From Micrococcales bacterium (GTDB taxonomy: Bacteria > Actinomycetota > Actinomycetes > Actinomycetales > Microbacteriaceae), in NCBI GenBank assembly GCA_024639965.1, contig JAHEGC010000004.1, positions 22,366 to 79,026 on the forward strand: DNA of 56,661 bases. The letters run 5' to 3'. Shown piece by piece: positions 24,094 through 27,994 of the stretch (position 1 is the stretch's first letter; each line of letters begins with the position of its first letter). Made by a program: the position numbers and the translations under genes. A model generated the notes under the pieces. That model worked only from the letters and a program-made list of their open reading frames with translations. It had not been told where the DNA came from and searched no databases.

Positions 24094-25067
24094 CCGAAAA
24101 CCTGTCGATGGCGAAGGCCATCAACCTCGGCCTTCAGCGCGCGCTCGCCGACGACCCCAAAGTGTTGCTCATGGGGGAGGACATCGGAACACTCGGCGGC
24201 GTCTTCCGCGTGACCGAGGGTCTCAAAAAGGAGTTCGGCGAGAACCGAGTTCTCGACACCCCGCTCGCCGAGTCGGGAATTGTCGGAACAGCAATCGGTC
24301 TCGCGATGCGCGGCTACCGTCCCGTCTGTGAAATCCAATTCGAAGGATTCGTGTTCCCCGCTTTCGACCAGATCGTCACCCAGCTGGCGAAACAGACGAC
24401 GCGTCACCAGGGCACTCAATCCTTCCCCGTCGTGATTCGCATCCCCTACGGCGGGCACATCGGTGCGGTCGAGCACCACCAGGAAAGCCCCGAGGCGTAC
24501 TTCGCCCACACCGCGGGCCTCCGTGTCATTTCGCCCGCGACGCCCAACGACGGATTCCACATGATCCAGCAGGCGATCACGTCGAACGACCCCGTCATCT
24601 TCCTCGAACCGAAGGCACGTTATTGGCCGAAGGGCGATGTGGACATGTCGAACGCGGCCGCGCCGATGCACCAGTCACGCGTTGTGCGAACCGGCACAGA
24701 CATCACACTCGTTGGACACGGCGCCATGGTCGCCATGATGCTCGATGCCGCCGAAGTGGCCCAGAGCGAGGGAGTTTCCATCGAGGTCGTCGACCTTCGC
24801 TCGCTCTCGCCCATCGACTACGACCCGATCATTGCGTCGGTGCAGAAGACCGGCCGACTCGTCGTCTGCCAGGAAGCCCCGGGCAACGCCTCCGTTGGTT
24901 CGGAAATCGCCTCGACCGTCGCGGAACACGCGTTCTATTACTTGAACGCACCAGTTCTTCGAGTCAGCGGTTTCGACGTTCCGTTCCCGCCCGCGAACCT
25001 TGAGGGTTTGTATCTTCCCGATGTCGACCGAATTCTCGACGCGGTCGATCGAGCGAGAGGGTACTGA
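24090..25067 (+). CDS. 2-oxoacid dehydrogenase E1 component beta subunit
   Basis: [56 protein letters not shown]. Confidence 0.95.
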
Positions 25068-25068
25068 C

Positions 25069-26433
25069 GTGGCTGTAGTTGATTTCCCGCTTCCCGACGT
25101 CGGTGAGGGTCTCACCGAAGCCGAGATTGTGCAGTGGCGCGTGAAGAAGGGCGACACCGTCGCGATCAACGATGTGCTCGTCGAGATCGAGACCGCCAAA
25201 TCGCTCGTTGAGTTGCCGAGCCCGTTCGCCGGAACCATTGTCGCGATTCTCGCTGCCGAGGGGGATACGGTCGCCGTCGGCACGCCGATCATTCAGGTCG
25301 ATTCGGAGGGTGGCGTTCCCGCACCGCTTCACCCCGCCCCCGAGATGAAGCACGACCCCGAAACTCTTCAGGCGAGCAAGCCGCCCGCGAGCAAACCCGC
25401 CGCGAAGGCGGAAGCCGAGTCGAAGCCCGAACCGGTTTTGGTCGGATACGGCAGCAGCGGACACGCAACCTCGCGTCGCGGCAAGCGCACGAATAACGCA
25501 CCGAGCGCTCCCGTTTCGGTGAGCGGCGTCGACGGCGTCACCGAACCCGTGGTCTACCCGCCCGCGGGATCGACTCCCGTGCTCGCCAAGCCACCGGTTC
25601 GCAAGCTCGCCAAGGAACTCGGCGTCGACATCACGAAGGTGCCGGCGACTGGAGCGAATGGCGAGGTCACTCGTGACGACGTCGTGCGTCAATCCGAAGT
25701 GAAGACGGTCTTCCGCAACGCCGAAACACCCGAGTGGCCGAGCGAACGCGAGGAGCGCATCCCCGTCAAGGGCGTCCGTAAGGCAATCGCCTCGGCGATG
25801 GTCAAGTCGAAGTTCGAAGCGCCGCACGTCTCAGTGTTCGTCGACATCGATGCGACCCGAACCATGGACTTCGTCAAGCGACTCAAGGCGTCACCCGACT
25901 TCCAGGGGATTCGCGTGTCGCCGCTTCTCATCATGGCGCGTGCCGTGATTTGGGCCGTCCAGCGCAACCCCACCGTCAACTCGTCGTGGACCGACAAGGA
26001 GATTGTCGTTCACCACTATGTCAATCTCGGGATCGCCGCCGCGACGCCGCGAGGGCTCATTGTGCCGAACGTCAAGGAAGCGCAGTCGCTCAACATGAAG
26101 CAACTCGCGATGGGGCTCGAACAGCTCACCATAACCGCACGGGATGGCAAGACGACCCCCGACGAGATGTCGAACGGAACCATCACCATCACGAACCTCG
26201 GTTCGTTCGGAGTGGACACGGGAACACCCATCATTAACCCCGGTGAGGTTTCCATCGTCGCGCTCGGAACCATCAAGCAGAAGCCGTGGGTCGTCGACGG
26301 CGAGGTCGTTCCGCGATTCGTCACCACAGTCGGAGCCTCATTCGACCACCGTGTCGTCGACGGTGATGTCGCCAGCCGATTCCTCGCCGACGTCGCGAGC
26401 ATTATTGAAGAGCCGGCCCTCCTCCTCGACTAG
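25069..26433 (+). CDS. Dihydrolipoamide acyltransferase E2 component
   Basis: One lipoyl domain ([12 protein letters not shown]), E3-binding domain, catalytic C-terminus with [16 protein letters not shown]. Confidence 0.95.
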
Positions 26434-26436
26434 TTT

Positions 26437-26465
26437 TTGACAATCATTCTCAATAACGATACGGT
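26437..26465 (+). promoter_or_regulatory. Zur-controlled promoter: Zur box TGACAATCATTCTCA (26438-26452) overlapping TTGACA-N17-TACGGT
   Basis: Imperfect palindrome TGAnAATnATTnTCA; -10 ends 6 nt before ATG 26472. Confidence 0.7.
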
Positions 26466-26471
26466 CGGGGA

Positions 26472-26753
26472 ATGACACTCATCACTTTGGCCGCGGACGC
26501 TCACGATGCCGGGCTTTCATTCTGGGACGAATTGTGGGCCATCACGTTCGATCCCGCTCACATCGTGTCGGAACTCATTTGGCAGCTCGTGTTCGACGGT
26601 TTGTTCGTCGCCCTGTTATACGGAGTGGTCTTCAAGCGTTGGCTCCTTCCTCGTCTCCGCCGTGAAATCCACAAGGATCTCGATGCGGAGCACGGAATCG
26701 AACACCACGACGACCACATCCACATCCGGGGCGTCAACGACCACGACGACTGA
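26472..26753 (+). CDS. Zinc-linked single-TM microprotein with His/Asp-rich tail
   Basis: ...IWQLVFDGLFVALLYGVVFKRWLLPRLRREIHKDLDAEHGIEHHDDHIHIRGVNDHDD; immediately upstream of zur. Confidence 0.75.
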   Translation: MTLITLAADAHDAGLSFWDELWAITFDPAHIVSELIWQLVFDGLFVALLYGVVFKRWLLPRLRREIHKDLDAEHGIEHHDDHIHIRGVNDHDD

Positions 26754-26754
26754 G

Positions 26755-27135
26755 ATGACAACCGCTACTCGAACTACCCGGCAACGCACCATGATCGAAG
26801 CCGCGCTATCGGGAGTCGCCGAGTTCGTTTCCGCACAACAGCTGCACGCGCTACTGGGTGCCGATGCTCCGTCACTCGCGACGGTTTATCGCACTCTTCA
26901 AAGTCTCGAACGAAGCGGACAGATAGACACCGTCAATCGGAACGGAGAAGCGGTCTATCGCGCGTGCGCCCCGACTCATCATCATCACCTCGTCTGCACC
27001 GTGTGTTCGACCACGATCGAGGTCGCCGGTGACGAGGTCGAGCGCTGGGCATCTCAAACCGCCACCGAGCACGGTTTCGCGTTGCAAACGCACGTAGCCG
27101 ACATTTATGGCACGTGTGTCGCGTGTTCGACCTGA
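26755..27135 (+). CDS. zur: Fur-family zinc uptake regulator
   Basis: ATVYRTLQSLERSGQIDTV, HHHHLVCTVCSTTIEV, IYGTCVACST. Confidence 0.9.
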   Translation: MTTATRTTRQRTMIEAALSGVAEFVSAQQLHALLGADAPSLATVYRTLQSLERSGQIDTVNRNGEAVYRACAPTHHHHLVCTVCSTTIEVAGDEVERWASQTATEHGFALQTHVADIYGTCVACST

Positions 27136-27278: not shown

Positions 27279-27515
27279 ATGGCAGCAGTGTGCCAGGTGA
27301 CCGGAGCCGTTCCTGGTTTCGGACACAGCATTTCGCACTCGCACCGTCGCACCAAGCGTCGGTTCGACCCCAACATCCAGAAGAAGACGTACTACGTGCC
27401 GTCGCTCGGCCGTAAGGTAACCCTCACGCTGTCGGCGAAGGGCATCAAGGTCGTCGACGCTCGCGGAATCGACGCCGTCGCCCGCGACCTCATCGCCCGA
27501 GGAGTGAAGCTCTAA
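27279..27515 (+). CDS. rpmB: 50S ribosomal protein L28 (zinc-ribbon-less type)
   Basis: [57 protein letters not shown]. Confidence 0.96.
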
Positions 27516-27685
27516 TGGCCAAGAAGTCCCAGGACATCCGTCCGATCATCAAGATGCGTTCGACGGCTGGAACCGGGTACACCTACGTGACCCGCAAGAA
27601 CCGTCGAAACGACCCCGACCGCCTCGTGCTCAAGAAGTACGACCCGGTTGTCCGTAAGCACGTCGAATTCCGTGAGGAGCGCTAA
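27515..27685 (+). CDS. rpmG: 50S ribosomal protein L33 (Cys-free)
   Basis: [56 protein letters not shown]. Confidence 0.96.
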
Positions 27686-27688
27686 ACC

Positions 27689-27994
27689 ATGGCGAAGAAA
27701 AGCAAGATTGCTCGTAACGAGCAGCGCAAGGTAATTGTCGCCCGCTACGCGACGAAGCGTCTCGAGCTCAAGAAGGCGCTCGTCGACCCCAACGGAACCG
27801 CGGAGTCGCGCGAGGCAGCACGCCTCGGACTCCAGAAGCTCCCCCGCAACGCGTCCCCTGTTCGTGTTCGCTCGCGCGACGCGATTGACGGCCGCCCCCG
27901 CGGTGTCCTCTCGAAATTCGGCATCTCGCGTGTCCGATTCCGCGAAATGGCACACCGGGGCGAATTGCCGGGTGTCAAGAAGTCTTCTTGGTAG
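27689..27994 (+). CDS. rpsN: 30S ribosomal protein S14 (long Cys-free form)
   Basis: [14 protein letters not shown]...[39 protein letters not shown]. Confidence 0.96.

Follow-up and report, generated by a model that had tools for sequence, protein, structure and literature searches.

A phage-related membrane microprotein behind a predicted Zur operator, at the position of znuACB in a genus of small-genome Microbacteriaceae

What does a zinc repressor control when its predicted operator stands in front of a gene for a 93-aa membrane protein of no named family? The question is raised by a locus in a window of 56,661 nt (the whole stretch of DNA that was analysed), where the gene for this microprotein, here named sp93, is followed directly by zur. 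A preliminary description regarded the microprotein as a candidate component of zinc homeostasis; the comparisons given below support that link and add two elements that the first reading did not have, namely the replacement of znuACB and a viral family. On balance, sp93 is probably a phage-related metal-binding membrane microprotein that was recruited as a Zur-repressed effector of zinc starvation, in the place of znuACB. The features of the locus are collected in Table 1.

Table 1. Features of the sp93–zur locus and its neighbours, in window coordinates
Feature	Position	Strand	Basis and remarks
2-oxoacid dehydrogenase E2 gene, last of E1a-E1b-E2, upstream neighbour	25000..26433	+	PF00198, PF00364, PF02817; one edge of syntenic slot
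Zur operator (predicted), 21-bp; 15-bp core TGACAATCATTCTCA at 26438-26452	26435..26455	+	sequence; overlaps -35
-35 hexamer TTGACA	26437..26442	+	sequence, consensus only
-10 hexamer TACGGT	26460..26465	+	weak, 3/6; 17-nt spacer from -35
sp93, single-pass membrane microprotein, 93 aa	26472..26753	+	predicted N-out/C-in; conserved ORF
sp93 membrane segment, about residues 35-55, holding invariant D42	26574..26636	+	Kyte-Doolittle maximum at residues 35-53, 19-residue window
Inner ligand motif HxxxDxxH, residues 67-74 (H67 D71 H74)	26670..26693	+	invariant in 36/36 sequences
His/Asp-rich tail, residues 76-93	26697..26750	+	cellular copies only; none in phage homologues (alignment)
zur, Fur-family zinc repressor	26755..27135	+	PF01475, 1.3e-24; co-directional, 1 nt past sp93 stop
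rpmB-rpmG-rpsN, Cys-poor zinc-free type, downstream neighbours	27279..27994	+	other edge of syntenic slot

The Zur/Fur-type palindrome described earlier is exact. TGACAATCATTCTCA has no mismatches to TGAnAATnATTnTCA and is the sole exact match to the Zur pattern in both the window and the whole 1.37 Mb genome. When up to two mismatches are allowed, the genome contains 14 sites per strand, versus 3 for a reversed-pattern control; the nine sites of this genome with one or two mismatches that were examined lie within coding sequence or away from zinc genes. At ≤3 mismatches, the window (1–56661) contains 13 matches compared with 5.9 expected from shuffling, all of them weak except the perfect one. 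In the 21-bp actinobacterial format, the box reads TTTTGACAATCATTCTCAATA and is close to the cg2911 operator of C. glutamicum, TGTTGACATCCTTTTTCAATA (PMC2823685). The layout of actinobacterial Zur operators, 21 bp with a 1-bp centre (PMC2823685), is the same in the window. C. glutamicum Zur operators cover the −35 element or the entire core promoter, and several of their targets are leaderless (PMC2823685); the window, with an operator over the −35 hexamer and a leaderless-type start, has the same arrangement.

The TTGACA-N17-TACGGT promoter that had been placed over the box was recovered at the same coordinates, with 6 nt between TACGGT and ATG 26472. A leaderless transcript is predicted because the −10 hexamer ends so near the start codon, in agreement with the leaderless-type promoter proposed before. 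A strict consensus promoter scan does not report this promoter, TACGGT being weak; the −10 hexamers of congeners at the equivalent place are stronger (TATGCT and similar). In seven congeners (L033, L034, L035, L036, L038, L041 and L044), the sp93 start codon is overlapped by an additional Zur-like palindrome, either TGAGAATGATAATCA or TGAGAATGATTATCA; such tandem operators are not present in the window.

As described, zur starts one base past the microprotein stop, at 26755; its frame is open in-frame upstream to 26506, and relatives put the start at about 26755. The closest solved relatives of the product are S. coelicolor Zur (3mwm, 5e-34) and M. tuberculosis FurB/Zur (2o03, 2e-33), both far ahead of Fur/PerR structures. 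According to this structural comparison, none of the 12 ligands that make up the three zinc sites of S. coelicolor Zur (ScZur) is lost (D58, C71, H75, H76, H77, H78, C81, C84, E96, H113, C121 and C124). The zur product is the sole Fur-family protein detected in the genome.

The genus was taken as GTDB MWH-Ta3 (Microbacteriaceae), which comprises small-genome, mostly aquatic bacteria. The sample consists of 15 genomes; the best of these, Microbacteriaceae bacterium MWH-Ta3, is 99% complete, and several others are incomplete MAGs. The gene order in the genus is E1a-E1b-E2-[box]-sp93-zur-rpmB-rpmG-rpsN-hup-ctaG. In two other compact Microbacteriaceae (L121 and L122), the order is E2-[box]-znuA-znuC-znuB-zur-rpmB-rpmG-rpsN; the L122 box, TGACAATCATTTTCA, is located just past the E2 stop, upstream of znuA. 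A box of this kind also precedes znu genes and zur in L123 and L124, two relatives whose operon is larger. It is thus the cargo that differs, sp93 being in the place of znuACB, whereas operator and repressor have been retained.

The importer itself was not found elsewhere in the genus. ABC-3 permeases are present in none of the 15 genus genomes versus 7/7 of other genera tested, and ZnuA in 0/7 genus genomes versus 7/7 of other genera; ZIP (PF02535) is likewise missing from the seven genus genomes searched, and sp93 itself has no match to it. Since the best genome is nearly complete, an assembly gap is an unlikely cause of these absences. NRAMP, by contrast, was detected in each of the seven congeners searched for it; no Zur-like box was seen upstream of its gene in the loci inspected, and NRAMP could carry zinc alone. 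In the six genomes scanned with the tight pattern, all operator-like sites elsewhere fall within coding sequence (obg, era and an MMPL-like gene, as identified by their translations). Only one target is therefore visible for the zur that 13 streamlined genomes keep, the scans covering six genomes and being liable to miss weak Zur sites. Because a complete Zur is kept in these genomes with one visible promoter-type operator, its cargo, sp93-zur, must merit regulation; the retention of Zur together with one operator is the strongest argument for sp93 as a zinc-starvation effector.

The sp93 gene is present in all 15 genus genomes, with a Zur-type box before it and zur directly behind it in 13. 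In the remaining two, G006/L042 and G005/L043, there is neither zur nor box at the sp93 locus, and a Fur-family protein was not found in these genomes (79–87% complete). There sp93 is located between E2 and rpmB and its tail is different; the cargo remains and the operator is gone. The proposed Zur control of the microprotein is thus consistent with a box that is kept in the 13 zur-bearing genomes and gone from the two zur-less ones, but this predicted zinc control is not universal, because in the latter sp93 persists on its own. Among 300 Microbacteriaceae genomes of 84 genera, sp93 occurs in the MWH-Ta3 genus only. A phylum sample gave no convincing match (one at E 0.002, within a long frame), and a plasmid search gave no homologues. 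The rpmB-rpmG-rpsN genes (27279–27994), although near zur, have no Zur box in the genus.

The sp93 ORF can be taken as real: all 15 genomes conserve it, and purifying selection on it is strong (median dN/dS about 0.13, 55 usable pairs). The product has the single hydrophobic segment attributed to it, at about residues 35–55. No Lys/Arg residues precede this segment and seven follow it, and for this reason an N-out/C-in topology is predicted. The AlphaFold2 model consists of one long helix (residues 28–74), with block pLDDT 88–97 across residues 21–60; the His/Asp-rich tail is the low-confidence part. Eight columns are invariant among 36 sequences (alignment A5), namely D27, P28, H30, E34, D42, H67, D71 and H74. 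Seven of the eight are Asp/Glu/His, although residues of this kind fill just 13 of the 55 columns in the core (hypergeometric P = 6e-5), and these seven ligand-type residues fall within a 140-degree arc on an ideal helix. The predicted topology puts D27/H30/E34 at the outer end of the helix, H67/D71/H74 at the inner end and D42 between them, within the membrane. Such conservation suggests that sp93 binds metal. The metal-ligand-rich tail, emphasised in the preliminary description, has the sequence quoted there, but it is not the conserved core: it is confined to cellular copies, and the ligands that never vary across the family are located within or close to the membrane helix.

With ample zinc, zinc-loaded Zur on the −35 operator would shut off the sp93–zur transcript. 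When zinc falls, Zur would be released and a leaderless mRNA would give sp93 and fresh Zur. The microprotein would insert with its N-terminus out and its C-terminus in, and its long helix would show D27/H30/E34 outside, D42 within the membrane and H67/D71/H74 with the His tail inside, all on one face. This ligand face may help zinc to reach the cytoplasm, with sp93 either forming a homo-oligomeric conduit or joining another transporter, for example the constitutive NRAMP, as a small subunit. Zur presumably binds the operator in vivo, and oligomerisation and an uptake or accessory transport role of sp93 are likewise presumed.

The architecture of the protein also bears on whether zinc is moved at all. 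In one alternative, sp93 carries no zinc across the membrane but is tethered there to buffer, chaperone or sense it, or acts as an adaptor modulating Zur or a transporter. The predicted topology, which places the His/Asp tail and HxxxDxxH in the cytoplasm, suits such a role, as do the predicted co-transcription with zur and a tail that only cellular copies have and that differs where zur is missing, in two genomes. A cytoplasmic buffer, however, has no need of invariant D27, H30 and E34 outside and D42 in the membrane, and the gene occupies the importer position of relatives, which makes this role rather unlikely. Within the transport reading, one predicted helix is unusual for a transporter. 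It is a tentative and unlikely suggestion that the single-helix phage-derived protein forms a homo-oligomeric import conduit for zinc or divalent metal, which took over the function of a three-gene ABC transporter while the Zur operator stayed the same, and that its actinophage relatives are auxiliary metal-uptake genes.

Outside the MWH-Ta3 genus, the sp93 family was found only in viruses, the majority of them actinophages, in 22 IMG/VR contigs and ten Streptomyces phage records; the phage homologues include those of Stanwilliamsviridae such as Wakanda (gp102) and BillNye (gp141). The shared core is DPxH(I/L)xxEL...D...K...HxxxDxEHG, and the phage rows of alignment A5 are 38–61% identical to the window protein. 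Several of the viral contigs carry WhiB, an actinophage mark. The phage homologues mostly stop at EHGIxH or shortly after and have no His tail; no zur linkage and no Zur box were seen at the gene. The tail and the linkage to zur, which had been put forward as traits to look for in homologues, are thus not general traits of the family: the tail belongs to cellular copies, in altered form in the two zur-less ones, the linkage is kept in 13 of 15 congeners, and actinophage homologues have neither. The ancestral role of the family may therefore not be zinc.

In a midpoint-rooted tree, 14 of the 15 cellular copies form one clade within the viral diversity and the G005 copy is placed among phages, but the grouping of all cellular copies in one clade is not rejected either (AU p 0.26). 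Occurrence in one bacterial genus, set against a wide viral spread, favours phage-to-host transfer, the rooting of the tree being by midpoint. The G005 copy (L043:5001–5228) is shorter and resembles the phage forms (DPNHIIAEL, ETW start); no promoter box precedes it, and its translation seems to be coupled to that of E2; a separate acquisition or an exchange with phage is possible.

The viral kinship raises the alternative of a phage-related membrane protein for exclusion or phage defence that came to lie behind the old znu promoter, zinc control being incidental and the ligand-like residues serving folding or partner binding. Every other homologue is viral, and the contexts are mixed (replication module, WhiB, tRNA clusters), as is typical of moron or host-takeover genes. 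A complete Zur with its operator in 13 genomes without another visible target is hard to explain in this way, and sp93 has no PADLOC match; an anti-phage function is quite improbable. Least probable of all is that the operator serves zur autoregulation only and sp93, as a passenger, does something that has no relation to metals: autoregulation of zur is known in some bacteria, actinobacteria included (PMC6103462), and two genomes have kept sp93 although zur is missing, but a self-only repressor should vanish fast from streamlined genomes, and sp93 is the first gene of the operon, right behind the operator, with invariant residues of metal-ligand types.

Family and fold searches gave no name for the 93-aa protein, as the first reading had anticipated. 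The window sp93 has no match in Pfam, PHROGs, PADLOC or PDB sequences and one match in NCBIfam, far under the cut-off; a PDB fold search found no similar fold, as expected of a lone helix, and Rfam gave nothing across the window. NCBIfam MIGRI (0.03–0.12) was dropped as weak, as were DUF350 (0.0075, in one of 36 family members) and a PHROGs match of the Wakanda homologue (0.02). Judged by its alignable core with all eight invariant residues, sp93 is a member of an unnamed family of actinophage small membrane proteins.

The recruitment of sp93 as a zinc-starvation effector can be set beside known systems. Like the actinobacterial znuACB-zur operon, the locus has a 21-bp operator over the −35 hexamer, a leaderless-type start and zur as the last gene; it differs in having, instead of three ABC genes, one for a 93-aa single-helix protein. 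With Wakanda gp102 and BillNye gp141 it shares the core, whereas the phage forms have no long His tail. MntS and KdpF of E. coli are small proteins that are induced by, or work with, a metal or ion transport system; sp93 has no sequence relation to them and, unlike sp93, they have known partners. A bacterial metal-starvation regulon appears to have shrunk to a single microprotein of phage kinship, at the position that the classical importer has in relatives, which suggests a new way of handling zinc, by a very small membrane protein. If true, this would represent a new minimal family of zinc-handling proteins, account for streamlined Microbacteriaceae living without ZnuACB or ZIP, and give the unnamed actinophage family its first functional lead, suggesting that viruses carry metal-acquisition genes.

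The surroundings of the viral homologues vary. In one phage group (L102–L105), the homologue is located between a ssDNA-binding protein and a DNA polymerase, in a replication module. In L114 (5649–7124), L111, L113 and L118, a queuine tRNA-ribosyltransferase-like protein (DNA 7-deazaguanine type) is encoded nearby on the opposite strand.
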